Below, piece by piece: positions 8,705-44,801 of a stretch of 49,911 bases of DNA. The position numbers were made by a program, and so were the translations under genes. Within the stretch, counting starts at the first letter, position 1; each line of letters opens with the position of its first letter. A model generated the notes under the pieces. It was not told the origin of the DNA. It did no database searches and saw only the letters and a list, made by a program, of their open reading frames with translations. The DNA comes from a virus, in the IMG/VR virus record IMGVR_UViG_3300022562_000956, positions 1 through 49,911 of that record, one strand, 5' to 3'.

Positions 8705-8706
8705 TG

Positions 8707-14970: not shown

Positions 14971-15262
14971 CCACTGCACTGAATGCCTGTGCCTACCTCC
15001 GGAAGGCGTACCAGCGCATAAGTGGCTAGGATACGATGCCGTGTGCCCAGACTGCCGGCAGATGCTGGATGACGAGGAAACGTTTGAGGAGCACGCGGCC
15101 GAAAACGTGTCCATCACCGAGTTCGGCATCGCAATCGGTCACTGCAGCTGCGTATACTGCCGTCGTCACCTGGCGCGACAGGCGCGACAGTGGGCGTGGG
15201 AGAAGTTGCACAAGGCGCGCGCTGCCGAGCCGGTTGACGAGAGCGAGGACATCACGTTTTGA
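14963..15262 (+). CDS. Cys-rich zinc-binding-like protein (99 aa)
   Basis: GTG start at 14963 overlapping the previous stop, with AGGGAGAG upstream. Three Cys clusters: H-C-T-E-C-L-C-L-P-P near the start, C-P-D-C-R-Q-M-L in the middle and G-H-C-S-C-V-Y-C-R-R-H later, consistent with two zinc sites. The C-terminus is Trp/Ala-rich (RQWAWEKLHKARAAE). Role unknown. Confidence 0.5.
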   Translation: MADHCTECLCLPPEGVPAHKWLGYDAVCPDCRQMLDDEETFEEHAAENVSITEFGIAIGHCSCVYCRRHLARQARQWAWEKLHKARAAEPVDESEDITF

Positions 15263-15282
15263 GCAAGCGGAGTGATGTGAAG

Positions 15283-19009: not shown

Positions 19010-19275
19010 AACTCGCCGACATCGACCCGCATGCCGTCGCACTCGACGTCGCACGCCAGTCGCACGCTCACGTGGTCGACCTGACGTCGCGCCTGCTCTC
19101 GCCGATCTGCGATGGCCCGTGGCTGCCACGCGGGCAGCCTGAGGATGCCGCGCTGCGCTCGACGCAGATCTACCTGACCGTGCGCGACCTGGCCGCGTGC
19201 GTCCTAGCCGATCGCCGCGTCCCAGCGCCCTGCAACGTCGAGGCTCCCCGGTGCACTCAGGTGCAGGTGGTATGA
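19006..19275 (+). CDS. Hypothetical protein (89 aa)
   Basis: GTG start overlapping the previous stop: M-K-L-A-D-I-D-P-H-A-V-A-L-D-V-A-R. Helical, with two Cys near the end. The last 72 bases lie over the end of the opposing esterase gene (19204-20598), so the rightward and leftward operons meet tail to tail here. An alternative is that the true protein ends earlier through an indel, but the reading is clean. Confidence 0.45.
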   Translation: MKLADIDPHAVALDVARQSHAHVVDLTSRLLSPICDGPWLPRGQPEDAALRSTQIYLTVRDLAACVLADRRVPAPCNVEAPRCTQVQVV

Positions 19276-20598
19276 CTCGATCCATGGACCCTCAGGCGCA
19301 TCGACGAGCAGCGCTCCGAGCACCACGGCGAGTTGTGCCTGCTGCGTGCGCACGGACTCCCACGATGGGTATGGCCCGTCGGACGGCACGGTCGTCGGAA
19401 GGCGCGTGACGACGATCGGGGCTAAGCCGTAGCGCGCGACGTAGGCGCTGATGGTGGCTGTCCAATTGTCCGCGTACGCAGGCGAAGCGTCGACCGCGTC
19501 GTTGGCGCCGTCGTAGAGCACGTATCCAGCGAGTCGCGTTCCCGGCGTCCTGAGCGCTGCGTCGATGCGCAGTGTGTTGCTGTGCCAGTACGATCCGCCG
19601 TAGACCTGCTCGGACGAGCGGCGCCCGCCATGGCCACAGTTGAGCGCGGAGGTTTCGCGGCCTGTACGCTGCGCTCGCAACCAACCGAACAAGCCAGCGG
19701 GTCCAATACCTTTCAGGTCGCTGGAATATGCGCCTGCCACGTTGCACGGCTCCGAGAGCTCCGAGTACGCATCCCAGTAGCTCACCGGCGTGAACGCGCG
19801 CAGCATCCACAGCGACCCGTCAAGCGGTGGATATCCAGCAGGCGCTGTCGCCGGATCCGCGCGGCCCTCCATCTCCGAATCGCCAAGGCAAATCCAGACG
19901 TCGCGCGTCGCCGGAGCCACGTAGCGAGCGCGTGCGTACTGCCAAAGATGCGCGACCTGCGACGCGGTCAGCGCGCCGTCGAACACGTCAAGCTCGGCCA
20001 GCGCGATGGTGCTCGACTCGCCGATCATCATGCCAGTGCAGGCTCCCGACGTCACGCCACGGCCAGTACGCGTGCCCAGTGAGACGCCGTCGCGATAGAG
20101 CGTCCACGTGCCGCTGCCAACCGAGCCGTCGACGACCCACGTCCACCAGTGCGGCCACTGGCATAGCGCGTCGGTCCAGGGCTGGTCACCAGGAGGAGTC
20201 GGGCGCCAATAGTCCCCGCTCTCGTGCTCTGGCACTGCGGAGAGCTGCGCATAGAGCGTCTCGAAATCCAGGCGCAGCGCCACACCGCCCGTCTCAACGT
20301 AGCCCCACCACGCGAGCGTGAACGAGCCGGATAGACAGACGTCGGAGCTCGATGTCGTGAGCGACTGCGAGGTGACTACTACGAGCGGGTGTGAGCGCGC
20401 TCGATTGGTTCCGGCGAGCAGCGATGGAGCATCGACAGCGGACAGCGTCGCGCCTCCGATGCGCGCCGGCCATGTTCCGCGGGCGTAGTCCTCAGCGAGC
20501 CATTGCGCGCGCAACGCGAAGTCTGCAGGAGAAGGCAGGCGGGACATTGACGGTGATTGGCGCTGACCTCGACGTGCGGCGCCTGCGCGCCGATTCAC
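19204..20598 (-). CDS. LamG-like plus SGNH esterase tail protein
   Basis: 464 residues. Residues ~60-225 form a LamG/concanavalin-type beta sandwich ending I-A-L-A-E-L-D-V-F-D-G-A-L-T-A-S-Q-V. Residues ~232-464 form an SGNH hydrolase: G-D-S-E-M-E-G with nucleophile Ser241, G322 in C-G-H-G-G, G-A-N-D (364-367) and H444/H446 near the end. The close G-D/Q-S-x-M-E-G form suggests a carbohydrate O-acetylesterase that deacetylates surface polysaccharide during adsorption. GTG 20598 overlaps the previous stop; ATG 20547 is an alternative start. Confidence 0.7.
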   Translation of the reverse strand: MNRRAGAARRGQRQSPSMSRLPSPADFALRAQWLAEDYARGTWPARIGGATLSAVDAPSLLAGTNRARSHPLVVVTSQSLTTSSSDVCLSGSFTLAWWGYVETGGVALRLDFETLYAQLSAVPEHESGDYWRPTPPGDQPWTDALCQWPHWWTWVVDGSVGSGTWTLYRDGVSLGTRTGRGVTSGACTGMMIGESSTIALAELDVFDGALTASQVAHLWQYARARYVAPATRDVWICLGDSEMEGRADPATAPAGYPPLDGSLWMLRAFTPVSYWDAYSELSEPCNVAGAYSSDLKGIGPAGLFGWLRAQRTGRETSALNCGHGGRRSSEQVYGGSYWHSNTLRIDAALRTPGTRLAGYVLYDGANDAVDASPAYADNWTATISAYVARYGLAPIVVTRLPTTVPSDGPYPSWESVRTQQAQLAVVLGALLVDAPEGPWIESYHLHLSAPGSLDVAGRWDAAIG

Positions 20599-24873: not shown

Positions 24874-27800
24874 TCACTGCCCCCTGGAAATGCTCTGGTC
24901 AGATCCAGCTTGTAGGTTGGCTGTTGCGGCGCCTAGACCGGTCGCCGACGTGTACGAAAGCTTAGCAGGCTGCTCTTGTGACGACTGAGCCTCTTGCGCC
25001 TGCGCGATGCTGCCGCTGGCTAGCTCGTTGATCAGCGTCTGGAAAGATGGCGTATCGAACGATGTCATCGGCGCACCAAGCACGCGAGACATCCGCAGGC
25101 GTTGCTTGTACGGAGGCTTCTCGCGCATCTTGGCGATCTCATTCGTCACCTGTGAGACGAACCTACCCCACAGCCGTGGCTGCAGCGTGCGGATCGCGTC
25201 AAGGTCCTCCTGCACCCACTCGCCACTGGCGATGCGCTGCATGGCCGCAGCGGGATTTTGCACGGCGCGCACCGAGCGCAAGAACGACTGCACGTCTGAT
25301 TTGGCGTACTGCTGCTTGGCCGCAGCCGCGAACGGTGTGCTCAGGTCGATGAGCCCGCTCGGCGCCTTCCGCATCAGGTAGTCGCTCGCGCTCTGGACAT
25401 AGCGCTCCATGGCCGCTGCATGCTCCGGAGACTCCGCGGCCAGCTGGCTGTACTGCTCGCGCAGTTGCTTGCGCTCGTCGCTCATCGGGTCGGTCATGCG
25501 CGACAGCGCCTGGATCCCGCGCTCCACGCTGGCAGGCTTGTTCGCAAACATCATCGTGCCAGCAATCGGAGCGCTGCGCCCAGCCGCTGTGGCAGCGGAT
25601 TCGACTCCGCGTCCGACGCGCTCAGCGGATCGAGCTGCCGCGCTTGCAGCTCGCTTGGATACGTCAACGGTCTTTCGCGCTGCATTGGCAAATGAGCGCG
25701 CCGCCTGAAGAACGAGGCTGTCACCAGACAGCGCTGTGGTCTTTGCGGCTGCCAATGCAGAGGCGTTCCCCGCCGCCGATGCGGCGGATGTCAGTTCCCC
25801 GCTGGCAAGCGCTGACAAGTCGATGTTGCGACGAGACGCTGCCTCGGAAACATTGGCCAGCTTCTGCGTCACGGACAGCGCGCCTTTGCCAACCCATCCG
25901 ACAGGTCCGGGGATGTCCGCCTCCTGCACGAGCCTGGCGAACTCGTCGCGATCGCGTCGCATCAGGGCGACCGCGTTCATGTTCTCTTCGATCTTCTCGC
26001 GCAGCCCGGACAACTTGCTTGCGAGTTCCTGAGCTTCCTGGCTCCCCCAAGCCTGTGCTCGGTTTACCGCATCAATCTCGCGCGCACGCAGGTAGCGACG
26101 AAACGCCTCCTCCTGTGGAACGACCTCTTCGTCTCCCAGGCGTCGCAGCAAGCTTCCGACATTGTTTCGATTCAGCTTCTTGAGTTGTCGGAACGGGTTC
26201 GCTGACGACTCGCCGCCCTCGTACAAAACACCACGAAGCATGTCGTCTTTGCTGCGCCTGATGGCTTCTGCATACGTAGCGTTGACGCGTTTTTGCATCG
26301 TTCCAAACGACCCAAAGACCGACTCGTCCTCCAGGTGCTTGCGAAGCTCGTCGGCCATCCCTGGCAGCTGCCCGTCTCCCTGGAGTGCCTGACGCACGAT
26401 CGGGTTGCGCGACACGGCAGCCTTGTTGTCGATTGCGCGTTTGAGGTCGTCAAGAACCATAGCGGCATCGCCCAACTCGCCGTTTGCGATGTGTTCGCGA
26501 AACTTTGCCCTTGAATGGGCTAGTTGAGCCGACAATTGCTTGACCGTAGCCCCACCACTTGCATCGTTTAGGCTTGGTCCTAGACGCTTCAGCCGAGTCA
26601 GTTGCTCACCAAGATTAGAGAACACAGACTCAGTCTCCATGCCGGCTTTGACTAAGTTCTCGTTCAGAGCCGACCTAGGCGTCGGCACGTATGCCCATAC
26701 CGAGTCAAGGCCAGCCTCTCTCGCCGCTGCCACTCGATGCAAGCCATCGTCAACGATGTATTTTCCGGATTCTCCGATATCAGCGCGGATAGCTGGCAAC
26801 GGTTTCCGTCCTTCAAGGGCTTCCTTTACGGGCTTGAGCTTGGACTCTGACCATGAAGACGGTGCATCTATTTCGTCCAACGGAACGCGCTCAAGACGCC
26901 ATGCATAGTCAGGGTCGTCAGCGTGTCTGGCCAAAAACTTCTTCGCATCCGCTTTGTCCGCAACGAACGCTGGGCCCTTCTTCCCACCAATGACCGGGTT
27001 GAACGATTCAAGACTCGCCTCGCCCAATGATTCAATCTTGCGAGGACCATGAACTTGTAGGTTCAGCTCCCGCGCCTTTGCGCGTTTGGCTGCGATAGCT
27101 ACCTGGTCGTCCATCCTCTGCGTGATCTTGACGAACTCGTCTCCAGCCTCGCCGATGTCGCGCACAGCCTGCTGCTGCATGTCCTCAAAACCGCCGGATG
27201 CAGCGCGCGCTTGCGCAAACAATGCGGCAGCCTTCTTGCGTTCAGCCTGCGCAAGGTCACGCGATACCAAGGCTCCCTTGCTCTCGTATAGTGGCTCGAA
27301 CGCAAACTCAGCCTCTGCTGCGGCATCTCCGGTTGCGCTGGACGATAGCTTGGACAACTCGTCGACCGTAGACGACACGCGTGATTCAAAGGATCCGGCA
27401 GCCTGCGCAGCTGCAGACGCAGCCGCATCAACACCAACCTCCGATGCAACCTCGGTAGCCACCGGCTTGCCCATTCCGAGTGCTTCACCGATAGCACCGG
27501 CAGCGCGAGATCCTGCCGCGTATGCGCCTCTACCTGCCTCGGAAAGCTTCTCGCCAGCGAAACGGACCTTATCAGCCACTGCGCGACCAGCCGCCTTCGC
27601 TCCGGTGCCAATCAGCGATGAAGCTCCTCCGAACGCTCCGCCAAGCAACGCGCCCTCTTGCGCGCCCATCGCAATGCGCTCGGCTGTGATTTCCTGATCA
27701 TTCAGAAAGTCATTGTCGACCGCCTGAGCAGCCCCATACAGCGCGCCCTCGAACGCGCCCTTGCCAACTGCCACGCCAGCTCGGCCAAGCGCTGACGTGA

Positions 27801-28338
27801 CGCCGCCAGCCCCCAGGCGTGCCGCAGCGGCCTCGGTGCCAAGCCCACCAGTGAGCAGGCCAAGACCGATGGCTCCACCGACCTCACCTACCGTCGATGC
27901 GATCGGATTGGCTTCCTTGCGTGCCAGCAAGTCGGCGCGCGCCTCTTTCTCAGCTGCCAGCGCCTGGTCAGCGCGATTCATGTCGACGACCGGCGCGTTC
28001 AGCCCGCGATCGACAGCGCGCTGCGTCTCGCCGATGCCCGCATAGTCGGCTAGCTGGTTGCCGAGCTCGGTGCCGATGCCTGCGCCGTACGCCTGGATGG
28101 CGTCGCTTGCGCCTAGCGTCAGGCCACGGCCGACGCTCTCAAGCAGCGCGCGCGGTCCTGATTCGCCAGCCTCAATCAGGCGGTTTGCGCGCGCAACGTC
28201 ATCGCCAGACGCGAGAGACCCGCCACGCTCCGACAGATATCGGTCGAGTTGGCTTTCCGGTACGGTGCTCAGCGAGCCGTCGTCAGCCTTGACGATCACC
28301 CGTCCAGAAGGATCTCTCTGCAAGTCATCCGGCATCAT
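24874..28338 (-). CDS. Internal/ejection protein with embedded ParB-like domain
   Basis: 1154 residues, Ala-rich. Glycine-rich hydrophobic stretches at ~150-260 (GGAIGLGLLTGGLG, GAQEGALLGGAFGG) suit membrane insertion by a podoviral ejection protein. Around 480-552 is a ParB/sulfiredoxin-like domain: L-E-R-V-P-L-D-E-I-D-A-P, L-P-A-I-R-A-D, G-K-Y-I-V-D-D-G-L-H-R-V-A-A-A-R-E-A-G. The rest is long helices (KRLGPSLND, EKIEENMNAVALMRRD) and a C-terminal tail. It should enter the cell with DNA; the embedded domain may act on host DNA or nucleotides (inference). Confidence 0.65.
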   Translation of the reverse strand: MMPDDLQRDPSGRVIVKADDGSLSTVPESQLDRYLSERGGSLASGDDVARANRLIEAGESGPRALLESVGRGLTLGASDAIQAYGAGIGTELGNQLADYAGIGETQRAVDRGLNAPVVDMNRADQALAAEKEARADLLARKEANPIASTVGEVGGAIGLGLLTGGLGTEAAAARLGAGGVTSALGRAGVAVGKGAFEGALYGAAQAVDNDFLNDQEITAERIAMGAQEGALLGGAFGGASSLIGTGAKAAGRAVADKVRFAGEKLSEAGRGAYAAGSRAAGAIGEALGMGKPVATEVASEVGVDAAASAAAQAAGSFESRVSSTVDELSKLSSSATGDAAAEAEFAFEPLYESKGALVSRDLAQAERKKAAALFAQARAASGGFEDMQQQAVRDIGEAGDEFVKITQRMDDQVAIAAKRAKARELNLQVHGPRKIESLGEASLESFNPVIGGKKGPAFVADKADAKKFLARHADDPDYAWRLERVPLDEIDAPSSWSESKLKPVKEALEGRKPLPAIRADIGESGKYIVDDGLHRVAAAREAGLDSVWAYVPTPRSALNENLVKAGMETESVFSNLGEQLTRLKRLGPSLNDASGGATVKQLSAQLAHSRAKFREHIANGELGDAAMVLDDLKRAIDNKAAVSRNPIVRQALQGDGQLPGMADELRKHLEDESVFGSFGTMQKRVNATYAEAIRRSKDDMLRGVLYEGGESSANPFRQLKKLNRNNVGSLLRRLGDEEVVPQEEAFRRYLRAREIDAVNRAQAWGSQEAQELASKLSGLREKIEENMNAVALMRRDRDEFARLVQEADIPGPVGWVGKGALSVTQKLANVSEAASRRNIDLSALASGELTSAASAAGNASALAAAKTTALSGDSLVLQAARSFANAARKTVDVSKRAASAAARSAERVGRGVESAATAAGRSAPIAGTMMFANKPASVERGIQALSRMTDPMSDERKQLREQYSQLAAESPEHAAAMERYVQSASDYLMRKAPSGLIDLSTPFAAAAKQQYAKSDVQSFLRSVRAVQNPAAAMQRIASGEWVQEDLDAIRTLQPRLWGRFVSQVTNEIAKMREKPPYKQRLRMSRVLGAPMTSFDTPSFQTLINELASGSIAQAQEAQSSQEQPAKLSYTSATGLGAATANLQAGSDQSISRGQ

Positions 28339-30098
28339 TTGCCCGTGTATGGACGCTCATCGAGCGTGTCCAGTTGGTGATTGTACGGCTTCAGAGAAGC
28401 GTTGACCGACTTGACCACGTCCTTCTCAAGCGAATCGTAGTAGTCGTACGTGTCTTTGATGTTTGCCTCTGACGGGTTTGTGAACGCTTGTTCCAGCTGC
28501 TTGATCTGACCTTCGTTTGGTGCGCTCTTGTCTCCGAGCACAAGGTTCCACTGCGAACGTAGGCGCATGATGAGTTCTTGCGACTTCGCTCGTTCAGTTG
28601 GGCTTAGCGTAAACCCGCGCTTGGACGCTTCTTTCAGCGCCTGCACAGTCGTCATGAAGTTGCCGGCCGTAGAAACGATCTTCTTGGCCTCCTTGACGTC
28701 GTCCTCGGTCACTTGCCCGGTACGCTTCAATCCTCCTGCCTCTGGCAGTGCGCCTTCACCTCCGCCAGCAGCCTTCTGACGAGCAATCTCAGCTTCGGCC
28801 ATCTCACGACGGCGCTTGCTTAGCTCGGCCATCTCGCTGTTTGAGATCGTTCCGTCGGCTTCCTTGGCCATCAGCTCCGCGATCTGCGGGTCACGCCGAG
28901 CAGCGGCCGCACGACGTGCCTGCTCCTGCTGGTACAACGACACGTTCGCCTGGTCGGCGCGTGTCTGATTCTTGTCGAGCCGCTCAGTCTCAAAGTTCTG
29001 CCGATTGCGCGCGCGCTCCTGGTCGATGGCGGCCACAGCCGCAGCCGCATTCGCCGTCGTCTCCTTGGACATCGACGCGTCGCGGATTGCCTCCAACTCT
29101 TGCTGATGAGCGCGCAGCCGCGCGTCGCGCTCGAGCAGGTCGGCTTCGCGGTCATCGCGAGCCATGTCGCGGATGCCCTGGATCTGCTGCTGCTTGGCAG
29201 TGAGCAGGCCACGCTGATTGGCCAGAGCCAGCTTCTGCTCTTCCATGTCGCGATCAATGCCGTCGTTGATGACCTGCATCGTAGTAGCCAGGCCGTTCGA
29301 CTGGTTTCCGCCGGAGCGAGCGATCGCATCGCCGATGCCGGACATCGCGAGCGCGAGTGCTGCTCCTACGCGCTGGGCCGTCGTCCGCCGGTCACCGATT
29401 TGCGTGCCTTCGATCTTCTTCTGGATCTCGGCTACCTCGCGGTTTGTCGCGTCCATGGCTGCCCGATGCTGCTCGCGACGAGCTCGCGCCTCATCCTCAG
29501 CAGCGCGTTCGGCAGTGGCGGCAGCTTGCTTCTTCTGCGCGATCTGGTCGAGCGCGTCCGCCTGCGCTTGCGCTGCCTCCATCGTGGCATCAGCGCGCAT
29601 ACCAGCGGCGACCTCTTCATCGGTCTGCGCCGTCTGCAGCGCCGATTCGGCGTCCTTGGCTGCAGCACCGCTACGCGCAGCGATATCGCGCATCGGGTTC
29701 GCCGGACCAGTGCTGCTGCGCTGGCGCTGGGCCATCAGGCGATTGGCTGCGAGTTGCGCAAGCTGCCTCGTGTCCATCCCGCTCAGGTCGTCTGGCTCGG
29801 CCGCAGGCGCCTGAGCACCAGGCGGAACAGGCGGAGCCATGGTCTCCTGCTCCGCAGTCTGCTGCTCGACCTGGAACGGGTCAGCCGGCGGCGAAAACGC
29901 GGGCTCCTGAGGAGGCTCAACCGACTGCACAGGCTCGGCAGGCGCGTAGTCGTAGGGTTGCGCCATCGCAGGCTCAGGCGCACCGGGCACGTCGTACGGA
30001 GATGCTGACGACGACGCCATCGCAGCCGGCGCTGATGACTGCATGTCAGCGCCGAACTGGTACGCGAGCTGTGCCTCTTCCTCGGGCGTCAGTGCCAT
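28335..30098 (-). CDS. Coiled-coil internal virion protein
   Basis: 587 residues. Residues 1-110 are Pro/Ala/Gln-rich and probably unfolded; ~115-420 is a near-continuous charged coiled coil (AERAAEDEARARREQHRAAMD and later stretches), with G-A-A-L-A-L-A-M-S-G-I-G-D-A-I as a hydrophobic break. The last ~150 residues are helical with D-V-K-E-A-K-K-I and a Y-D-Y-Y-D-S-L-E-K stretch. Position between two other large proteins in the tail block fits a second ejection protein. Confidence 0.6.
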   Translation of the reverse strand: MALTPEEEAQLAYQFGADMQSSAPAAMASSSASPYDVPGAPEPAMAQPYDYAPAEPVQSVEPPQEPAFSPPADPFQVEQQTAEQETMAPPVPPGAQAPAAEPDDLSGMDTRQLAQLAANRLMAQRQRSSTGPANPMRDIAARSGAAAKDAESALQTAQTDEEVAAGMRADATMEAAQAQADALDQIAQKKQAAATAERAAEDEARARREQHRAAMDATNREVAEIQKKIEGTQIGDRRTTAQRVGAALALAMSGIGDAIARSGGNQSNGLATTMQVINDGIDRDMEEQKLALANQRGLLTAKQQQIQGIRDMARDDREADLLERDARLRAHQQELEAIRDASMSKETTANAAAAVAAIDQERARNRQNFETERLDKNQTRADQANVSLYQQEQARRAAAARRDPQIAELMAKEADGTISNSEMAELSKRRREMAEAEIARQKAAGGGEGALPEAGGLKRTGQVTEDDVKEAKKIVSTAGNFMTTVQALKEASKRGFTLSPTERAKSQELIMRLRSQWNLVLGDKSAPNEGQIKQLEQAFTNPSEANIKDTYDYYDSLEKDVVKSVNASLKPYNHQLDTLDERPYTGK

Positions 30099-30105
30099 GG
30101 CTACC

Positions 30106-31428
30106 TCAGACAGGGGTGAGAATGTTTGGGTTCAGCGGCATGATAGTTTTACCACCTCCTCCGCCAAGTGCGTTGCTGCGCATCGCAGCCTGCTGGCGAG
30201 CTCTGCGCTGCTCTTCGTCGAGTTTGTTCACACCGGCAGGCTTGCCGGGCATCGCCACCGGTGGCCCGTAGTTACGTGGTCCCATGCCAGCCTCCGCCAG
30301 AAGCTGCTGGCCCATGTCGCCGGTGCCAGGCGCTATGCCAAGCGACTTCTCGCGGCCGGTTGCGCCAGGCCGCGATGCCAGTCCCTGCGTAGTGCCGGAG
30401 ATGGCGTTTCGGTCCTGCAGGCCTGACGACGTTCCGGAAACAGCGTTTGATGCATAATCGCCAGCAGCAGCACCTCCAACCGCCCCCGCTGGACCTCCGC
30501 CAATAGCTCCGAGTACAGTGCCACCAGTGGTGAACAGGCTACCAAGCAACGCTTTGTCGCCAGACGCAGCCGCAGCTGCCGCTGCCAAGCGCGCGCGCTC
30601 CAGGTCGACGTTGGCGCCAAGCTCTGCCGTTCTGGCGCCTGTCTCAGCACCGAGGTATGCACGCTCGCGCCCAGCGCCAAGCTCGCCGATCGCTCCGGCA
30701 GCTTGGTTCTGCAGGCTGATGCCCTGGCCTTGCGCACCCAGGCCAAGGCCAGCGAGCGATGCCCCGACCTGCGCCGATCCGATATCCTGCCCACGGATGC
30801 CCGTCGACCCTGCCATGTACGCGTCGCGCGCCTGAGCCATCTCGGCGGCTCGCAATGCACCAGCCTGCTGGCCAAGCTCAAGTTGCGCCTGCGAGTTGGC
30901 CATGCTGGCGTTGCGCATCGCAGCTGCTTGGTTGCCGCCGCGAGACGACGCCGCAAGACCCATGTTCTGCCGTGCAGCACGGCCGGCGTTTGCGCGCAGC
31001 ATCAACTCGGCCTGGCTCGGGGCCTGGCCGCGCGCAGCCATCGACTGCAGGCGTAGCGCGTCCTCCTGCGACCCGCGTGCGCCAACCGATCGGTCCATGG
31101 AATTACGGGCAGCACCGAACCCGTACCGAGCCACGTCGCGACCCTCGCGTGAATATCGGGCGCCTTGCAGAGCACCTGCGCCTAGCATGCCGACGGCGTT
31201 GTCTTGCTGCGCAGAACCGCTCGCAATGCCAGCACCATATTCACTAGACCAGTCGCTTCCTGGTGCATACGCGGCGCGCGAAAAATCAGGCGTGGTGCTA
31301 CCGCTGCCAGACTTGCTTGGTGACAGCCAGTTCTTCGCTTTTTTGCCGCCAGCTACCGCCGCATCGGTGATGGCAGACGGGAAAAACAGCGCGTCCTTCC
31401 AATCAAGTTTGCCGTCGAAAAGACCCAT
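30106..31428 (-). CDS. Internal virion/ejection protein, Ala/Gly/Gln-rich
   Basis: 440 residues from M-G-L-F-D-G-K-L-D-W. Mostly Ala/Gly/Gln/Arg helices with low-complexity runs (ASSRGGNQAAAMRNAS, LAAAAAAASGD), then a Gly-rich hydrophobic segment near 310-340 (GSLFTTGGTVLGAIGGGPAG). Such composition and gene position match the smaller podoviral ejection/pilot proteins. GTG at 31431 sits one codon upstream; ATG 31428 is chosen, with GAGGTGAT upstream. Confidence 0.55.
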   Translation of the reverse strand: MGLFDGKLDWKDALFFPSAITDAAVAGGKKAKNWLSPSKSGSGSTTPDFSRAAYAPGSDWSSEYGAGIASGSAQQDNAVGMLGAGALQGARYSREGRDVARYGFGAARNSMDRSVGARGSQEDALRLQSMAARGQAPSQAELMLRANAGRAARQNMGLAASSRGGNQAAAMRNASMANSQAQLELGQQAGALRAAEMAQARDAYMAGSTGIRGQDIGSAQVGASLAGLGLGAQGQGISLQNQAAGAIGELGAGRERAYLGAETGARTAELGANVDLERARLAAAAAAASGDKALLGSLFTTGGTVLGAIGGGPAGAVGGAAAGDYASNAVSGTSSGLQDRNAISGTTQGLASRPGATGREKSLGIAPGTGDMGQQLLAEAGMGPRNYGPPVAMPGKPAGVNKLDEEQRRARQQAAMRSNALGGGGGKTIMPLNPNILTPV

Positions 31429-31437
31429 CACATCACC

Positions 31438-32679: not shown

Positions 32680-35600
32680 TCAGCTCGGTGATGTGATCTC
32701 AAGGTCTGGCTGCGCCGCATTCACGCGGTGCACGTTGTTGATGATTTGTCGTCCGCGCTTGGTGACACCGTATTCCTGCAGCACTGCGAGCGGGATGACC
32801 CCCGAGTGAGACAGGCTTCCAGCGACCTCGCAGTGCAGCTTGTACGCGGTCACGCGCTGGCGAGCGGGCTTGAGCGGCAGCCACACGACGCCATCCGTGA
32901 TCCAGTCGGCAAGGTTAGCGCCGGAGTACTCCCACTGCGTTGCCACCGTATTGATGTCGTAGTCCAGGTACAGCGTGATGGTGATCGTCAGGTTGCTCGA
33001 CAGATCCTCGCTAGGCGTCTGCAGCGATAGCAGCAGCGACCACAGCCTGCCGTAACCGTTCAGGCTGGTCAGCTTGATCCACGGCGTTTCCCAGATGCTA
33101 TCGCCTGAGCGCTGGTTGTACCCGCTGTCTCCGCGTCGTAGCTCGGTCAGGATGCTGGTGCCGGTCGACCTGTAGATCAGGTCGTTGATGATGACCGTGT
33201 CTACCTCGCTCGTGGTGAGCGTGAGCTGCGACCATGCGTTGTTCGCGATGGAGTAGTAGTAGATCGCGTCGGCGCCCTGCACACGGATCTCGTGGTTCGC
33301 TGGATCGTACACAGCGCGTAGGCACGTGAACGTGCGCGCGTTCGTGTCCGGCTCGATCGGAAGTCCGACCTCTTGAATCTGCCCGTTCCAGATCACGAAG
33401 CCACGAGCGCTCTGGAAAAACAGTCCGACGGGCGTGTCCGCGATGCTCGCGCGAGACGAGCAGCCAATCTCGATGACCTTGCGCGGAGGAGCGAACGAAC
33501 CGAAGCCGAGCGCGTTTGGACCCTCACCATAGAGTTGATAGATGCCGTCGTCGCAAAGAAACGTTGGAACGCCTTGTACGTCGATGACAGCGACGGCTTC
33601 TGCGCCGAGGTCTCCGGTCAGCGCGCTGTTCCACTCGGGCGCGTATCCAGACACGAACGGCTTCGTGCACCACCATCGCGAGCGGTCCTCTGCGTCGACT
33701 CCGAACATGCGGTCGCCGACTGTCGCGATAGAGCAGAAGCTCGGCGGAGGCTCCGACGAGAGCTCGCCGCTGTCCGTGTATAGCGGCGGGTCGCCGGTGG
33801 AACCGGCTGCGATGCTCGTGAACGCGTAGTGCATGCCGCCGGTCGTCGTCGAGTCGTAGTCGTCCTTCTTGTTGGAGTTGTTTGCCAGGTAGTAAAGCGA
33901 TCCTGGTCCAGACTCCGTGCAGTAAACCTCAACGCTGTATCCGCCAGCTGCGATTGCAGAGTTGCGCCCAGTAAACGCGGGGATCTCAACATAGAACGTG
34001 TCGGTCGCATCGACCAGGATAGCGTCGCTAGGAGCGCTTCGGTGCAGCTTGCCAGCGCGGTCTACCCACGTGTACAGCGCGACTACGCTGATGGTCGTCC
34101 CTGGCGTGCCGATGTAGCAGGCTGGGCGTCGCAGCGGCTGAGCTTCGGTTGTATGCATGCCGTCGTGGTCGAACAGCGAACCGCCTGCGATCAGCGTGGT
34201 AGAATCGTGCTGCTGCCATGGAAGTGGTGATGGCGAGAAGTTGAGCTTGTTCCAGAACACGCTTTGCGGGTACGTTGTCGTATCGCTTGGCACTCCGTCT
34301 GCGGCTGGGTCTCCAACTGCAGCGATATGCGCTACTCCATCGATCACCGACACCGCAGATGTCGCGATGATTCCGATCGGTTGCTTGAACGCACGGTCGT
34401 GCATGATGCGAGCGGCAGGGTCGAGCCGGCTCTCGGTGTTACCGAGCCGAGCGATGATTATTGCAGCCGCCGATGTATCCCAGGCTGACGAAACGAACGC
34501 GGTTCCCCTGCCAGTCGTCAGCGGACAGAAGCATTTGCCGCCGACCGTGAACGCGCCAGCGATGATGCTCGTGTTCGGCGTAGTGAATTTGCTGAAGTCG
34601 TCGAACATGCTCGACGCGAAGTCGATAGCCGAGCAGTCGACGAAATCCTGCGCGCTGACGTTCGTGTCCGTGCCCATCACGAAGATGCACGCGATGTCGT
34701 CGTCGTCCTTCTGGCATGCAGTGATCTTGCTGTAGGCCTTGCCCGTGCCAGGCGTCATCGTGGTATACGTCGTGCCTGGAGTTCCCAGCACTTCTCCGAT
34801 GACGTTGCTCGAATAGATACTCACCACAAGTGACTGCGTAGCGCCCACGACCAGGTCAAAGTCGGTCGCGGTATGGCTTGCCGTATGGGTCGATGCGACC
34901 ACCTGAATCGACGTGTACGTGCGCACGTTCAGGATGGCCGAACCGCTGTTGTCGTAGTATCCGAACAGGTACGCCGTACCACTTGGCGAGTGGTAACGGA
35001 TGCGGTGCTGGTCAGACCCGGCAGTCGACGTCAGCGTGACAGCGGTCTGGAATGAGCGTGAGCTGTCGACCCACTCGACAAGCTTGATCGAGAACGGAGC
35101 CGCAGTCGCGTCAGAATACGTTACTACCGCGCCCGTGGTCAGGTATTGGCACGCTCCAATGACAGGAGCTCCACCGCTGTCTCCCTGGGCTGTCACCTGC
35201 CGTTCTGCGATGACTGTGCCGTCCGCCGTGACCGCGCGCATGCGCACTTTCCACGCACCACTCGTGTACACCGACCAAGCGAACACCAGGTTGCCGTTGG
35301 CAGTGCCAGCGCAAACCGCGGTGTGAACGTACTCTTCCTGTACGCCAAACTGGGCCGTCGCTAGCAACTGACGCGACACCTCGATCGGCGTCGTAGAGAA
35401 CGCGCCTGACGTCGCGCTGCTGCCAGCGGTAGCAGGAGATGTGCACAGAGCCGTAGTGCCATCCACGAGGCGCCCTACGCCATGCTGAGCGCTCACAAAA
35501 ATGACGTCGTTATCGCGCGCTGCCAGCGTATGCACAGTGCCTGTTGCGACTGCCGTACTCGATGTCGCAGGCGTGCGCTCGAGCTTGCCAAGCTGGCCGA

Positions 35601-35715
35601 AGCGATAGCCATCTAGCACGCGGAAGCCGGACGGGCCCTCGGCCTGCTCGTGCTCCTTGAGATCGAGCCCGCCGGTCAGCAGCAGCTCTTGCTCACCGCG
35701 TGGAAGGCCAGCCAT
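32680..35715 (-). CDS. Large tail (nozzle-like) protein
   Basis: 1011 residues, start M-A-G-L-P-R-G-E-Q at ATG 35715, overlapping the previous stop (TGATG). Beta-rich throughout, Ser/Thr-rich, few charged helices; N-terminus L-L-L-T-G-G-L-D-L-K-E-H and late S-L-L-L-S-L-Q-T-P and Y-K-L-H-C-E-V-A-G-S. Size, composition and position right after the adaptor match the large beta-propeller nozzle/stabilisation proteins of podoviruses (T7 gp12 / SU10 / epsilon15-type). Assignment by context. Confidence 0.55.
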   Translation of the reverse strand: MAGLPRGEQELLLTGGLDLKEHEQAEGPSGFRVLDGYRFGQLGKLERTPATSSTAVATGTVHTLAARDNDVIFVSAQHGVGRLVDGTTALCTSPATAGSSATSGAFSTTPIEVSRQLLATAQFGVQEEYVHTAVCAGTANGNLVFAWSVYTSGAWKVRMRAVTADGTVIAERQVTAQGDSGGAPVIGACQYLTTGAVVTYSDATAAPFSIKLVEWVDSSRSFQTAVTLTSTAGSDQHRIRYHSPSGTAYLFGYYDNSGSAILNVRTYTSIQVVASTHTASHTATDFDLVVGATQSLVVSIYSSNVIGEVLGTPGTTYTTMTPGTGKAYSKITACQKDDDDIACIFVMGTDTNVSAQDFVDCSAIDFASSMFDDFSKFTTPNTSIIAGAFTVGGKCFCPLTTGRGTAFVSSAWDTSAAAIIIARLGNTESRLDPAARIMHDRAFKQPIGIIATSAVSVIDGVAHIAAVGDPAADGVPSDTTTYPQSVFWNKLNFSPSPLPWQQHDSTTLIAGGSLFDHDGMHTTEAQPLRRPACYIGTPGTTISVVALYTWVDRAGKLHRSAPSDAILVDATDTFYVEIPAFTGRNSAIAAGGYSVEVYCTESGPGSLYYLANNSNKKDDYDSTTTGGMHYAFTSIAAGSTGDPPLYTDSGELSSEPPPSFCSIATVGDRMFGVDAEDRSRWWCTKPFVSGYAPEWNSALTGDLGAEAVAVIDVQGVPTFLCDDGIYQLYGEGPNALGFGSFAPPRKVIEIGCSSRASIADTPVGLFFQSARGFVIWNGQIQEVGLPIEPDTNARTFTCLRAVYDPANHEIRVQGADAIYYYSIANNAWSQLTLTTSEVDTVIINDLIYRSTGTSILTELRRGDSGYNQRSGDSIWETPWIKLTSLNGYGRLWSLLLSLQTPSEDLSSNLTITITLYLDYDINTVATQWEYSGANLADWITDGVVWLPLKPARQRVTAYKLHCEVAGSLSHSGVIPLAVLQEYGVTKRGRQIINNVHRVNAAQPDLEITSPS

Positions 35716-36062
35716 CAGAACACCCACAGGCGAATCGTCGCCTGCGTTGATAGACCGCCTGCGTTCGTCCGCTGCATAACGAACGTCGTGGACGGGTCGT
35801 AGCCGTTGTCTCGAGCAACGATTGGGCTCGTCACGACAGCGCCGTCAAGCGCATCTCCGATGATGCCAGGGCGCATCACCATGATGCCGAAGCCTCCTAC
35901 GTAGTCGCGTCCGAGCAGGTGCTGCGCAGTCGCAACGCTCGCACCAGACGCGAACGTGATGTCGAGCCAGCGACCGCCAAGGAACGGCACGTTGATCAGC
36001 TCGTGCTCGCGATGCGCATCAGGCGTAGGGCGAAACGGCAGTGCTGGTCTACGCTCAGCCAT
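35715..36062 (-). CDS. Small beta-sandwich virion protein (LWVF ending)
   Basis: 115 residues. H-L-L-G-R-D-Y-V-G-G-F-G-I-M-V-M and the final A-T-I-R-L-W-V-F match a family of small phage head/tail proteins that carry H-x-L-G-R-x-x-x-G-(F/W)-x-V and end V-x-L-W-V-F. I do not know its exact place; genome position between adaptor and nozzle suggests a tail or connector component. Confidence 0.5.
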   Translation of the reverse strand: MAERRPALPFRPTPDAHREHELINVPFLGGRWLDITFASGASVATAQHLLGRDYVGGFGIMVMRPGIIGDALDGAVVTSPIVARDNGYDPSTTFVMQRTNAGGLSTQATIRLWVF

Positions 36063-36754
36063 CAGCGCCTCCAGAACAACGAGCGGTCATCGACGAACTC
36101 GCCGCTTCCCCATGTGTCACGCACCTGGAACGTCGAGAAACGGTCACGCTGCTTGGCCTGCGCGACGATCTCCTCCTCGATCTGCATCTTCATGCGAATC
36201 GACTCTGTCGAGTCCTTCTCCTCGCGTTCAAGCGCCTTGACCATGAAGTCCTGGATGAGCCATTCATCCCAGCCAGGCTGCGCGTCGATGCTGTCGCTCG
36301 TCGCCGTGACGAAGATGCCGGTGTCGTAGTACAGCGAGACCGTATACGTGTCGCTCGGCGTCGGAAAGAACCGCAGCGTCGAGCCATGCAGCCGATAGAG
36401 CGGGGGCGCATCCCAAGCCTTCACGCTCTCGCCAGCCGCCAGGTAGTCGTCGACCGACGCCATGCGCAGCGGCACAGACTCATCTGCCGCACGCAGCCAC
36501 GCGATCTGGCGCAGGTCGGTGAAGTTGCTCGGCAGAGAAACGGTGGAAACGCTGGCAGTCGTCGTCACAGTGCCGAGCGTCAAGAAGTAGTCACTGTTTG
36601 CCCACCGAATGAGCGAGCTGAGGCGACGCGCGCCGAACTTGACCCAGTTCAGCGCCATCGTAGTGGTCACGTACGACGTGGTCGAGAAGTCGTCGTAGTC
36701 CAAGCGGACCCGCGCCTCCTCCATGATGTCGCTGACCAGAACGGACGTCGCCAC
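36062..36754 (-). CDS. Head-tail adaptor (SU10/gp6-like)
   Basis: 230 residues from GTG 36754 with GAGGTGA upstream. M-A-T-S-V-L-V-S-D-I-M-E-E-A-R-V-R-L-D-Y, then T-M-A-L-N-W-V-K-F-G-A-R-R-L-S and a middle beta region ...Y-R-L-H-G-S-T-L-R-F-F-P-T-P-S-D-T-Y-T-V-S-L-Y-Y, which is the SU10-adaptor pattern (helical bundle with a beta insert between G-x-x-L-x-F-x-P and L-Y-Y). Attaches to the portal and carries the nozzle. Confidence 0.65.
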   Translation of the reverse strand: MATSVLVSDIMEEARVRLDYDDFSTTSYVTTTMALNWVKFGARRLSSLIRWANSDYFLTLGTVTTTASVSTVSLPSNFTDLRQIAWLRAADESVPLRMASVDDYLAAGESVKAWDAPPLYRLHGSTLRFFPTPSDTYTVSLYYDTGIFVTATSDSIDAQPGWDEWLIQDFMVKALEREEKDSTESIRMKMQIEEEIVAQAKQRDRFSTFQVRDTWGSGEFVDDRSLFWRR

Positions 36755-37727: not shown

Positions 37728-38948
37728 TCAGCCAGCCGGTAGGGTGATGCGCATGATCTTGCCAGGCGCGTTCGAGGCGAAGTTGTGGTCGATGACACCC
37801 TGGATTTCGAACGTGTCGCCCGTTGCCGAGCCAAGGCGCAGGAACTCCACGCCGTCCGAGTTGATCAGGCTCGGTGCGTTGCCGTTGGTGCACCACATCC
37901 AGGCGCCTGGGTCGATGGCGTAGGCCACGTTGAGCGGGCAGTCGTTGTCCGGGAGGATCTTGATCCCATGGTGCATGAAGCCTTCGTAGCCGATGCCGTA
38001 CTCACCGTCGTCGGTGATGAAGCGGTCGCCTTCCTTGGCCACGCTCAGGTTCGAGATGTTGACCGGGTTCGTGTACACGTACTTGAACCTGGCCTTGGTG
38101 CGGGCTGCGCGCGCCATCGCCTTGATGTAGACGGTTTCCTGCGTGTCGCTGGAGCCGTCGTAGCGGATGCCGCCGAGGCGCTCAGGGTCGCTCGACCGTG
38201 CGACCTGGAACAGCGTCGTGCTCGGAGCGCTGGAAGGCACCCACGTCGCGAGGCCGGAAGCCGCAGCGCCGAAGTCGCCGTCCTGGAACAGGTAGTCGTC
38301 GTTGGTGATGCCGCTGATGGCGGTAGCCCAGTTCGCCGACGCGGTGAGCACGCCGGTGTCGCGGTTGACCGCAGTGATCGTCGCCGTGTTGCCCGAGTCG
38401 CGTAGCGATCCGGACTCGCCGTCCGAGCTCGATGCCGCGATCTTCATCCCGGGCTCAAAGAAGAACGAGTCCTCGGGATTAGCCAGCGTGAGGCTGGTCG
38501 TGCTGATCGCGGTCGTCGGATGAACGCGCGCGCGCCAGCCCCCGAAGCTGCCGTACTGCTCCTTCGCGACGTTGTCGCCGAGTGTGGAGAGCGCGCCGTC
38601 CATCTCGCTCTTGAGCAGATCGAGGAACATGCCCGCGTTGTTGGCGTCGTTCATCGCCTGGCGGACGACGATGCCCGCCACCTTCGCAACGCAGTAGTCC
38701 GAGATGGGCGTGACCTGGAAGCCATCCCATTTCGACGCGTACTCGTTGGTTCCGGCGGTCGTCAGGTTGTGCGAACGCCCCTGCGGCTTGCCGTATTGGA
38801 TCGGGATGTGGAAATACCGACCCGTCATGTCCTTCTTACGGCTCGTGGTGCCGAGGAGCGGGTGGTCCTTCATGGTGAGTTCGGTGTCCTCACCAATGTC
38901 GTACATCTCTTTGAGCGCGTCGAGCGCTGCGGTTCTGTCGAACGTCAT
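37728..38948 (-). CDS. Major capsid protein (HK97-type)
   Basis: 406 residues, the head shell subunit. Starts M-T-F-D-R-T-A-A-L-D-A-L-K-E-M-Y and continues through P-I-Q-Y-G-K-P-Q-G-R-S-H-N, W-D-G-F-Q-V-T-P-I-S-D-Y-C, K-A-M-A-R-A-A-R-T-K-A-R-F-K-Y and D-D-G-E-Y-G-I-G-Y-E-G-F, a capsid type of podoviruses with a separate scaffold. Position after the scaffold and length are right. No protease gene or propeptide is visible. Confidence 0.8.
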   Translation of the reverse strand: MTFDRTAALDALKEMYDIGEDTELTMKDHPLLGTTSRKKDMTGRYFHIPIQYGKPQGRSHNLTTAGTNEYASKWDGFQVTPISDYCVAKVAGIVVRQAMNDANNAGMFLDLLKSEMDGALSTLGDNVAKEQYGSFGGWRARVHPTTAISTTSLTLANPEDSFFFEPGMKIAASSSDGESGSLRDSGNTATITAVNRDTGVLTASANWATAISGITNDDYLFQDGDFGAAASGLATWVPSSAPSTTLFQVARSSDPERLGGIRYDGSSDTQETVYIKAMARAARTKARFKYVYTNPVNISNLSVAKEGDRFITDDGEYGIGYEGFMHHGIKILPDNDCPLNVAYAIDPGAWMWCTNGNAPSLINSDGVEFLRLGSATGDTFEIQGVIDHNFASNAPGKIMRITLPAG

Positions 38949-40063: not shown

Positions 40064-41977
40064 TTACGCGGTGCCCATCGGTGGGGCGTTTGCCAGCGCA
40101 GCCATCTGGTCTGCGGCCTGTTGCGGCTGCTCTGTCTGGGCAGCCATCGTTTCGGGCGGAGGCGCTGGAGGCTGCATAGCCGCGGACAAGCGGCCAATCT
40201 CAGCGTTCAGCAGGTCCATGTAGTCGCGCACGTTATCGAGCACCTCCTCCGGAGCATCGGAATACCGGCACTGGAGGTACGCAACGCGCGCAGTGGAAAG
40301 GCACAGTTTGAGCCCATTGACGCCGAGAATCGGGTCGACGAACTCTTGGTAATCCTCGCCGTCCATGACCTGTTCGACGAGCCATCGCGAGTAGTCGATG
40401 TCCGCCATCTTGTCGCGCATGTCGCTGTCGAGGTCGGGTAGGTCGAGCAAGTCAAGCGCAGTCTGCTGGTCGATCATGCCAGCCTTGAGCAGCCCCACCA
40501 CGTCGTCGCGGCGACCCTTTGGCGTCGTGGACAGGCCCGACGTCGGGAACACCTGCAAGCGCACGTCGTCATCGTCCATCTGGACATCGCGCCACTTGAT
40601 GCGATGAATGAAGTCGCGTCGGCCACGCTTCGTCTGCGCCGTGACAGAGTAGCTCTGGTCGATCTCGGCAGCGTCGTCGTTGCAGCGTGAGATGAGCCGT
40701 GCAACGTCGAGGTGGAAGCGCTCCCAGCGTCGCTGCGGGTGCACGTGACGACGCGATTGCACGTCGTCTGCCGCGCGAATGCCGACGGCCGAGTTGATGC
40801 CGACCATGCGCTCGCCCTGCACCTGCTGCTCTGAGTAACCCTCGTTCGCCAGAGTCTCCTCGCGAATGGCTGGGATTTCAGCGCGTAGGTCCGGGATCGT
40901 GCCGTTCCAGGTCAGCAACTTCGGCTCACCCATCTCGGTCTGCAGCACCGTCCCCGGCAGATTGTTGATCTGCTCAGGGGACAGGCCACATCCCTTCGGC
41001 AGGATCGTGATGCACTTGCTGTTCAGGTCCTGCGAGCGCTCGTACTTGCGGACCAGCTGATTGATGCGCCTCTGCGCCTCTTTGGTGCGCGCGACCAGCG
41101 ATTGGCCGTACCAGCCTGCAGGCATGTCCGCATAGCGGTAGAACGCGAACGGGAAGTCATCATGCTTGTACTCCGCGTCGACAAGCACTGTGCGCCCGAC
41201 GCACATCACGAAGCGCCCAGGCTGCTTTGACGTGCCGAGATGCCATGCGTGATAGACGAGCACCGAGTCTGCCGCCGACTCGCGCGTCAGCAGGTAGTCG
41301 GCCATGTCCTCGCCGTTGACCACGCCGCTGAGGTTGATCTCGTCGGCCTTGCGCGGATAGAGCTCGCGCAGCCTGTCGCGGTTCACCGGCTTGACCCAGT
41401 ACAGGTTCCGCGGTGCGCCGTGCAACGCCTCGTTGTGGTCGACCAGGATCTCGTTCGGCTGCACGCGCTCGATGCAGACGCGACCCGTGTCAGGGTGCAC
41501 GTAGCCGTAGACGCCGCCGATGTCCTGAATCGCGCCATCGCGGAAGATGCGCGGTCCCAGGTCGTCCATGCCGAGCTGCTTCATCTGGCCGCTGATCGCG
41601 AGCGTGCGCTGCTTGGCACGACGCTGCATCCACCAGTCGCCAGCCTGCGTCAGGTACTGAATCGTTGGCTTGCCAGCTGCGATGATCGACGCCGCGGTGT
41701 CTACGATGCTGAGGCACAGCATGTATCGCGAGCGGTCGTTGTGTCCGTACAGGACCGACTTGGCTCGCTGCATGGGCGATGCGTCGATGCCGCGTCCGTA
41801 CAGGTCATCGGGCGAGACGATGCGCATGTGCAGCAGGTTTGACCGGCGTCGCTCCTTCTGCTGCTTGCGCAGGAAATCGCAGAGTCCTGACACCAGTTCG
41901 TGCACGTTTGCGCCGCGACCCCGCTTGGGAGCCGACCACCACGCCTTTTGCTGCACGTTGGGCTGCACATAGGGCAT
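40064..41977 (-). CDS. Portal protein
   Basis: 637 residues, the dodecameric ring through which DNA is packaged and ejected. Begins M-P-Y-V-Q-P-N-V-Q-Q-K; portal-type stretches include S-I-V-D-T-A-A-S-I-I-A-A-G-K-P, Q-P-N-E-I-L-V-D-H-N-E-A, Q-R-R-I-N-Q-L-V-R-K-Y, G-T-V-L-Q-T-E-M-G-E-P-K and the C-terminal P-P-A-P-P-P-E-T-M tail. First gene of the leftward virion operon; terL faces the other way, starting beyond the divergent region at 42.0 kb. Start: ATG 41977, six codons after an upstream ATG at 41995. Confidence 0.75.
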   Translation of the reverse strand: MPYVQPNVQQKAWWSAPKRGRGANVHELVSGLCDFLRKQQKERRRSNLLHMRIVSPDDLYGRGIDASPMQRAKSVLYGHNDRSRYMLCLSIVDTAASIIAAGKPTIQYLTQAGDWWMQRRAKQRTLAISGQMKQLGMDDLGPRIFRDGAIQDIGGVYGYVHPDTGRVCIERVQPNEILVDHNEALHGAPRNLYWVKPVNRDRLRELYPRKADEINLSGVVNGEDMADYLLTRESAADSVLVYHAWHLGTSKQPGRFVMCVGRTVLVDAEYKHDDFPFAFYRYADMPAGWYGQSLVARTKEAQRRINQLVRKYERSQDLNSKCITILPKGCGLSPEQINNLPGTVLQTEMGEPKLLTWNGTIPDLRAEIPAIREETLANEGYSEQQVQGERMVGINSAVGIRAADDVQSRRHVHPQRRWERFHLDVARLISRCNDDAAEIDQSYSVTAQTKRGRRDFIHRIKWRDVQMDDDDVRLQVFPTSGLSTTPKGRRDDVVGLLKAGMIDQQTALDLLDLPDLDSDMRDKMADIDYSRWLVEQVMDGEDYQEFVDPILGVNGLKLCLSTARVAYLQCRYSDAPEEVLDNVRDYMDLLNAEIGRLSAAMQPPAPPPETMAAQTEQPQQAADQMAALANAPPMGTA

Positions 41978-42025
41978 GGTAACGACGCGGCGCAAGACTA
42001 CGTTTGGCTATTGTGCGACGCCGGG

Positions 42026-42997: not shown

Positions 42998-43371
42998 CCA
43001 CTGAGAACGACGACCCGCGCTACCTGCGCACCATCCGCGAACTGCGTGCTCTTGGCGCGACGCACATCCGTCTGCGTGAGTCAGGTGTCGACGTCGAGTT
43101 GGACGTGTCGTTCTCTGGCCCGCCAGCCGCTGTCCAGCTAACGCAGGATCCGCCTGCGATTGAGATCGGCCGTCCTGACCGCACGCCTGTCATCGTGGCG
43201 CACGAGACAACGTCAGCGACGCACCTGCGCGAGGCTGCCATCGCCTACGTGCGCACGCATCCAGACGGCATCTCGTCGGCGCTGGCGACGCTGCCAGCCG
43301 AGTATCAGGGGGCGATGAGCGAGGCTGACCTGCGTGACCTGCTCGACGCGGAGCTGATTCCAGGCGGCTGA
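42994..43371 (+). CDS. Hypothetical protein before terL (125 aa)
   Basis: GTG 42994 overlaps the previous stop (GTGA); its own stop overlaps the terL ATG (TGATG). Acidic N-terminus, R-A-L-G-A-T-H-I-R-L-R-E-S-G-V-D-V-E-L and a C-terminal helical part (HLREAAIAYVRTHPDGISSA). Its position would suit a second small terminase subunit, but no HTH is visible and terS-like features are stronger at 368-1015. Confidence 0.5.
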   Translation: MTTENDDPRYLRTIRELRALGATHIRLRESGVDVELDVSFSGPPAAVQLTQDPPAIEIGRPDRTPVIVAHETTSATHLREAAIAYVRTHPDGISSALATLPAEYQGAMSEADLRDLLDAELIPGG

Positions 43372-44801
43372 TGTCATCAGCAAGGAGACAGGCATTGATC
43401 GAGAAGGCCCGTCGCAAAGCGATTCGCGACCAGATCGCGTCTGAACTGCACCCGAAACAGCGTGACGTGCTCGTTGCCATCCTATCAGGCGCACAGTACA
43501 TCGCAGCTCTATGCGGACGCCGCGCAGGCAAGACCGAGTTCGACGCGCGCCTCATCGCGATCGCGCTTGAGCGATGCGGTCCAGACGAGTTCGTGTTCTA
43601 CGCGGCCGTAACCAGGAGCCTGGCCAAGGACCTGATGTGGTCGCGCCTGGCCGCGCTCAACGAGCGGTACAGCCTCGGCTGGCGCATGCTCGAGCACGAG
43701 GGACGCATCGTCACCTCACGCGGCGGAACGTTCCGCGTGCTCGGCTTTGACAAGCTGCCCGAGCTCGAGAAGACGCGCGGCTACAAGACGCGCCTCATCG
43801 TGTTCGACGAGCCAGCGACCTACGCCGACAAGCTCGAGAAGCTCATCCGCGACTGTGTGGGCCCGTCGCTTGGCGACTTGCGCGGCACGCTTCTGATCAA
43901 CGGCACGCCAGGCGAGGTCTGCGCAGGCTTCTGGCACGACGTCAGCACTGGCCGCAACGCGCGATACGAGACGTTTCACTGGACGGTGCTGGACAACCCG
44001 CACTTCCCTCGTGACGCGGCTGCGATGCTCGCCGAGGAGCGCGCCGCCAACGGCTGGACAGAGGAGGACGCGACCTACCAGCGCGAGTGGATGGGTCGCT
44101 GGATCAACGACCCGACGGCGCAGGTCTACAAGTTCGCCTACGACCGCGACGTCATCCTGCAGCTGCCTGGCGACTACCAGGAACGCGGTGGCCGGTGGAT
44201 GTTCACGCTGGGCATCGACTTCGGCTACTCTCCAGACCCATGCGCCTGGGGAGTTCTCGGCAGCCCTCCGCACAGCCACGACACGTACCTCGTGCACACC
44301 GAGGAGCACTACGAGCTCTTGCCAGACCAGGCTGCCGAGGTGACTGCGCGGCTCGTTGATCGCTTCGACCCGCAGGCTGTCGTCGGCGATCCTGCAGCTG
44401 CAGCCTACATCGCCGAGTGGAACCGTCGCTGGTCGGAGCAGTCGAAGGCTTGGATGCACCCGGCAGACAAGCTGGGCAAGTTCGACGCGATCGACGTGCT
44501 AAATGGCGAGATGCGAGCGGGGCGTTTCAAAGTCTACGCGCCCGCATGCCAGACGTGGATCGGGCAAGCACAGAGCTTGCCGTACAAGAACTCGCTGACT
44601 CGCGATCAAGAGCATCCTGCGTACGCGAACCATTCCGTCGACTGCGTGCTCTATAGCCACCGTAGACACAGGTCGTATCTGCAGGAGCTGCCGAATCGCG
44701 AGCCTACGCTAGACGAGCGCGTGGAGATTGCTCGCCAGGCGCGCATCGATCGCGTGCAGAGCGCGCTTAGGTCGGCGCAAGAGGCCTGGGACGACTACTG
44801 A
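43371..44801 (+). CDS. terL: Terminase large subunit
   Basis: 476 residues, the packaging motor. ATPase: Walker A C-G-R-R-A-G-K-T (48-55), Walker B L-I-V-F-D-E (142-147, catalytic Glu147) and a coupling motif region near L-L-I-N-G-T (174-179). Nuclease (RNase H-like): acidic residues in L-G-I-D-F-G-Y-S (Asp283), V-V-G-D-P-A-A (Asp340) and H-S-V-D-C-V-L-Y (Asp424). Complete. The gene faces away from the virion operon and ends tail to tail with the small leftward gene at 44795. Confidence 0.95.
   Translation: MSSARRQALIEKARRKAIRDQIASELHPKQRDVLVAILSGAQYIAALCGRRAGKTEFDARLIAIALERCGPDEFVFYAAVTRSLAKDLMWSRLAALNERYSLGWRMLEHEGRIVTSRGGTFRVLGFDKLPELEKTRGYKTRLIVFDEPATYADKLEKLIRDCVGPSLGDLRGTLLINGTPGEVCAGFWHDVSTGRNARYETFHWTVLDNPHFPRDAAAMLAEERAANGWTEEDATYQREWMGRWINDPTAQVYKFAYDRDVILQLPGDYQERGGRWMFTLGIDFGYSPDPCAWGVLGSPPHSHDTYLVHTEEHYELLPDQAAEVTARLVDRFDPQAVVGDPAAAAYIAEWNRRWSEQSKAWMHPADKLGKFDAIDVLNGEMRAGRFKVYAPACQTWIGQAQSLPYKNSLTRDQEHPAYANHSVDCVLYSHRRHRSYLQELPNREPTLDERVEIARQARIDRVQSALRSAQEAWDDY

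Follow-up and report, generated by a model that had tools for sequence, protein, structure and literature searches.

A ParB/sulfiredoxin-fold domain within a candidate gp16-type ejection protein of a virus with a podovirus-type structural module

The window analysed here is the whole of the IMG/VR virus record IMGVR_UViG_3300022562_000956, 49,911 nucleotides in length, and the subject is a 1154-residue protein encoded on its minus strand. Computation gives residues ~466-564 of this protein as a complete ParB/sulfiredoxin (Srx)-fold domain with an intact phosphate-binding (P) motif, and synteny makes its carrier a candidate for the last and largest ejection protein of a short-tailed phage. A tentative proposal, which we hold to be somewhat short of probable, is that this is a packaged gp16-type ejection protein in which a mid-protein ParB/Srx binder of nucleoside triphosphates (NTPs) would serve as an early infection module in the new host. 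The gene, the domain and its motif are placed as follows:

24874..28338, minus strand: gp16-type (last and largest) ejection-protein candidate with a ParB/Srx domain, 1154 aa, assigned by synteny and a 4-nt ATGA overlap
26647..26943, minus strand: ParB/Srx-fold domain, residues ~466-564 (core 481-553), from AlphaFold2 models, PDB fold searches and the family profile
26734..26745, minus strand: G532-L533-H534-R535, the GxxR phosphate-binding motif (P motif, or Box II), from the sequence, the SbnI/SerK alignment and the columns of alignment A2

A preliminary description of the sequence had read a ParB-type core at residues ~480-552 of the protein and had named AlphaFold modelling with fold comparison as the check. 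The motifs on which it relied are present, the first as RLERVPLDEID at residues 481-491 (R481-LERVPLDEID-491) and the second as G525-KYIVDDGLHRVAAA-539, residues 525-539 in full being GKYIVDDGLHRVAAA. No model in Pfam, PHROG or NCBIfam covers the domain, which would therefore be overlooked by routine annotation. When the 107-aa region was compared with all PDB sequences in an unselected phmmer search, three SbnI chains (ParB fold) ranked first (E 0.018-0.048). An unselected tblastn search of 50,697 phage records (limit E 10) matched 38, the annotated ones among them being ParB-like proteins, one portal and one MuF/head-morphogenesis protein, and a tblastn search of 7.3 Gb of plasmids with the whole carrier gave a single weak match (E 9) to a ParB/RepB/Spo0J protein at residues 520-619. 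A single-sequence AlphaFold2 model of 167 residues had a predicted local distance difference test (pLDDT) score of ~76-83 in the domain, and an alignment-based model built on 26 viral domains scored 84 overall. All of the top 50 PDB rows returned by Foldseek for the single-sequence model were ParB/Srx-fold entries, and the top PDB matches to both models (Foldseek, VIA-align 2) were SerK, SbnI, sulfiredoxin or ParB/Noc throughout. For the alignment-based model the best structural match was SerK (Z 9.9, 76 residues, 2.1 Å), other matches including ParB (7bnk, Z 9.0), ParB bound to an analogue of cytidine triphosphate (CTP; 7bnr, Z 8.9), sulfiredoxin (6ky4, Z 8.9) and SbnI (Z 8.6); the single-sequence model found the same families at slightly lower Z. 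The ParB-type core of the preliminary description is thus borne out by both models and by the fold searches. A family profile matched only the domain within the window (E 4.8e-6 at Z 1e6), but because its members were picked by a motif that the window domain itself has, it is partly circular, and weight is placed on the unselected searches and on the single-sequence model; the aligned viral sequences had been fetched by DNA patterns built on the motif, so it is the single-sequence model that provides non-circular evidence. The first such pattern, VDDGxHRxAA, yielded mainly out-of-frame noise and three plausible matches. The domain-coding stretch (26647-26943, minus strand) has a GC content of 0.56, compared to 0.617 for the whole carrier gene, and coincides with a dip in GC at third codon positions (GC3), which would agree with a separate origin of the module without proving it.

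An important consideration is to which branch of the fold the domain belongs and what its active site would allow. The GxxR motif (Box II) is intact as G532-L533-H534-R535 and aligns with the DGxHR of SbnI and SerK, the DGxHR columns being invariant in alignment A2, partly through selection. SbnI and SerK also rank first by alignment profile (E 8.5e-9 to 6e-8), followed by sulfiredoxin (~3e-5 to 9e-5) and then Noc and ParB (5e-5 to 4e-3), and these nearest solved relatives (SerK, SbnI, Srx) bind ATP/ADP and are metabolic or repair enzymes. The catalytic Cys of sulfiredoxin lies in a GCHR motif; its position is taken by L533 (GLHR), and sulfiredoxin activity was rejected on that ground. The catalytic Glu of SerK/SbnI (SerK E30) aligns with S494 in phmmer and profile alignments, in which a shift of a few residues is possible, and serine kinase activity is thought unlikely. 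Fold and intact motif together make nucleotide binding by the domain likely, while L533 and S494 at the Cys and Glu positions mean that it is no sulfiredoxin and probably no serine kinase either. Among the ParB-fold proteins so examined, some of them from phages, NTP binding is abolished when the GxxR arginine is mutated, and specificity for ATP, CTP or GTP is not predictable from sequence (PMC12704722). A canonical partition role was judged improbable, as the partner domains were not found: Pfam gave no match to a helix-turn-helix (HTH) or ParB dimerisation domain in the carrier, although divergent domains could escape, and the scanned neighbours of the gene are structural genes.

The preliminary description had also spoken of an NTP-dependent or nuclease-like domain; the intact GxHR makes a plausible NTP-binding site, while the nuclease half finds no specific support, no nuclease motif having been found in the domain. 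That absence, the two substituted catalytic residues and the failure of Pfam, PHROG and NCBIfam scans to find a second effector domain in the carrier make it unlikely that the domain is an injected effector enzyme, nicking DNA or degrading NTPs or signalling nucleotides of the host on entry, even though one relative of the domain, on a polyvalent-like protein (L089), is accompanied by an ART-PolyVal domain. The missing Srx and SerK catalytic residues would also suit a degenerate module, in which the fold is kept as a scaffold and nucleotide binding has been lost; scaffold uses of the fold have been noted, PadC being said to be one (PMC12704722). However, a decayed pocket would have no need of the GxHR P motif or of the V-DDG-HR-AA residues around it, all of which are preserved, and we regard such decay as improbable.

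The identity of the carrier is read from its surroundings. The ORF is read from 28338 to 24874, its ATG and the stop codon of the gene upstream share a 4-nt overlap (ATGA), and it belongs to a tightly packed operon with the portal gene at one end and a gene of tail type at the other. The other members of the structural module, with the terminase, are:

28335..30098, minus strand: gp15/gp20-type ejection-protein candidate, 587 aa, by synteny and size, with no family match
30106..31431, minus strand: gp14/gp7-type ejection-protein candidate, 441 aa, by synteny, with no family match
32680..35727, minus strand: tail nozzle/hub candidate, 1015 aa, from a weak phrog_511 match (E 0.0097) and position, the nozzle reading being presumptive
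36062..36754, minus strand: head-tail adaptor, SU10 type (PF24175 SU10_adaptor, E 2.8e-14, above cut-off)
37728..38948, minus strand: probable major capsid protein (NF033394 capsid_maj_Podo, E 2.5e-11, below the curated cut-off)
40064..41995, minus strand: portal / head-tail connector (phrog_156, E 2.5e-8; PF23899 SU10_portal, E 1.6e-6)
43371..44801, plus strand: terminase large subunit (phrog_2, E 1.9e-28)

The module runs from portal through presumed scaffold, capsid, SU10-type adaptor, nozzle candidate and an Ig-like protein to the 441-, 587- and 1154-aa genes, and as annotated this is the gene order of short-tailed phages; downstream of the 1154-aa gene lie LamG-type and esterase proteins and an endolysin. 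The three ejection candidates are tightly packed (gaps of +7 and -4 nt), and the carrier is the last and largest of these consecutive genes behind the head and tail-machine genes, the other two being assigned by synteny as well. Podoviruses have their ejection genes in a small gp14-gp15-gp16 operon whose final gene is the largest, with a gp16 of 609-1337 aa, and these genes diverge fast and swap enzymatic domains (PMC8954989). Because module order, third and largest position and size class all match those of podoviruses, the 1154-aa protein is very probably a gp16-type ejection protein, strongly inferred from synteny, and the ejection role assumed in the preliminary description gains support from the same source (PMC8954989). 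A GrpE match in the carrier (E 0.013, residues 939-1028) fell below the cut-off and was read as coiled-coil noise. Short exact peptide patterns, which reach close relatives only, found no homologues of carrier, nozzle or portal in IMG/VR, nor of carrier or terminase in GTDB genomes, and tblastn against phage records returned nothing for the carrier, the other two ejection candidates, the portal or the capsid; as far as these searches reach, the virus forms a lineage of its own, no close relative having been detected. The tail-end protein at 19204-20598 (minus strand) has a LamG-like region and a SASA/GDSL carbohydrate esterase (PF03629, E 1.5e-9), and may possibly de-acetylate host surface glycans.

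The domain is found on other phage proteins too. Viral ORFs gathered by the motifs YxVxDGxHRxAA and DGxHRxAA....G include several large virion proteins, among them portals of unrelated phages (L122, L059 (PF04860), L138 (PF06381, E 6e-109)) and a MuF-like protein (L092; PF04233, E 0.0032, below cut-off), as well as the polyvalent-like protein mentioned above; among cultured phages the domain occurs on the Tunturi_5 portal (profile E 2e-4) and on Jabberwocky gp13, annotated as MuF-like/head morphogenesis (profile E 0.022). These fusions have the motif and the domain layout in common with the window domain, and they too are carried by a virion protein, one of the head or portal vertex; in them, however, the domain follows the portal or MuF part, and the carriers are unrelated to that of the window. 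The L138 portal (5790-9239, minus strand; 1150 aa) bears its DGxHR ParB-like domain near residue 764 and is weakly metallopeptidase-like at its C-terminus (PF06167, E 7.6e-5, below cut-off), which would make it a three-part portal fusion. The remaining carriers are mostly stand-alone or ParB-like proteins. A further carrier, L070 (10266-11909, plus strand), combines an N-terminal DGxHR ParB-like domain with LigD phosphoesterase-like and ATP-dependent DNA ligase domains. Since the portal carriers remain in the virion, the domain does not in itself imply injection, and its fusion to portals would also fit a role in the producing cell, which is rich in NTPs, the domain acting there in head assembly or packaging and being carried passively thereafter. 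We know of no NTP-requiring assembly role for ejection proteins, and we doubt this explanation quite strongly.

According to the mechanism that we favour, a mid-protein ParB/Srx domain of DGxHR type that lies closest to SerK/SbnI would bind a nucleoside triphosphate via G532-L533-H534-R535. The gp16-type protein would be packaged and would leave the head ahead of the DNA or together with it, and the domain would turn active only on contact with NTPs in the cytoplasm of the new host, where it would act early in infection by NTP sensing or turnover, or by NTP-dependent handling of the incoming DNA. That the domain binds NTPs, that its carrier is packaged and delivered, and where the domain acts are all inferred, and several observations weigh against the proposal. 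The portal fusions place the domain on a protein that remains part of the virion; for 17 of the 28 ParB-fold proteins that were purified, no binding of NTPs was seen in vitro (PMC12704722); R535 is seen in a single carrier sequence, no orthologues having been found; searches found no homologues for the carrier or the other two ejection candidates, so that their role is read from gene order alone; and the carrier has no convincing membrane segment, its best 19-mer (1.28, Kyte-Doolittle) being below the mean shuffle maximum. Amphipathic helices formed by the Gly/Ala-rich segments at residues 60-300 could, however, enter the membrane.

A different assignment, rather unlikely in our estimation, makes the domain part of the channel and not an effector: after refolding in the inner membrane, the domain would bind CTP or ATP on the cytoplasmic side and gate or grip the incoming DNA, as an NTP-dependent switch or clamp in the ejection apparatus. 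The fold includes CTP-gated DNA clamps, with ParB, Noc and KorB among the fold matches, and DNA binding on the cytoplasmic side has been ascribed to T7 gp16 (PMC8954989). Yet Pfam detected neither of the partner domains, HTH or dimerisation, and the domain is closer in sequence to SerK/SbnI than to ParB.

Proteins delivered with the virion have been found to contain ParB domains before. Those of the DdrB type were described in polyvalent proteins in 2017 by Iyer et al., who proposed roles as an NTP-regulated DNase or in NTP sensing, and the incorporation of P1 DdrB in the head is a precedent for delivery (PMC5512222). DdrB-like proteins and the window carrier both have a ParB/Srx domain with the conserved arginine, in a large phage protein among virion genes with presumed co-delivery with DNA. 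Features specific to the DdrB-like family are an Asp or Asn following strand 2 and an additional helix bearing a conserved Tyr. The window domain differs in that no Pfam ParB model matched it up to E 10, and its carrier, in which MPTase, lysozyme and other polyvalent partner domains were not found, is of another type, a podovirus ejection-protein candidate. SerK and SbnI, which share DGxHR, come nearest among relatives of solved structure, both in the profile search and in fold comparison (Z up to 9.9), but the window domain has S494 at the catalytic Glu (SerK E30) and the SerK C-terminal domain was not detected. The carrier resembles T7 gp16 and P22 gp16 in gene order, size class and position as last of three ejection genes, with no sequence match found; T7 gp16 has an N-terminal transglycosylase, whereas here the ParB fold lies mid-protein. 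A search of the available literature found no report of a ParB/Srx domain on a gp16-type ejection protein. Such domains are known in other phage-particle proteins, and what appears to be new, on the present annotation, is the type of carrier and the SerK/SbnI-like branch.

Elsewhere in the record, a protein at 15259-16116 (plus strand; phrog_18079, of unknown function, E 7e-61) contains the 8-residue repeat GTATAGxx about 12 times, the coding DNA being a 24-bp tandem array at 15693-15984 (93% matches). The 305-aa ORF at 10700-11617 (minus strand), with an N-terminal region like phrog_289 and a lytic-transglycosylase-like C-terminal region, could be a genuine fusion or, instead, two separate genes taken for a single one. 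Low-complexity CCGCCG-type repeats at both ends of the record (1-94 and 49818-49911) are possibly assembly ends.

ParB-fold domains are now known as versatile NTP-binding modules, and phages have repeatedly placed them on proteins of the DNA-exit vertex, namely portals, MuF proteins and, in the present case, an ejection-protein candidate. At its most far-reaching, and this we consider a long shot, a ParB-fold NTP switch would sense the cytoplasm of the new host and then open, grip or pull the genome, forming an NTP-gated, perhaps CTP-gated, channel. If that were true, an NTP-gated DNA-delivery channel would add a new principle to what is known of genome entry by phages, with the DGxHR domains of portal and MuF proteins as variants of this device where the DNA leaves the particle.
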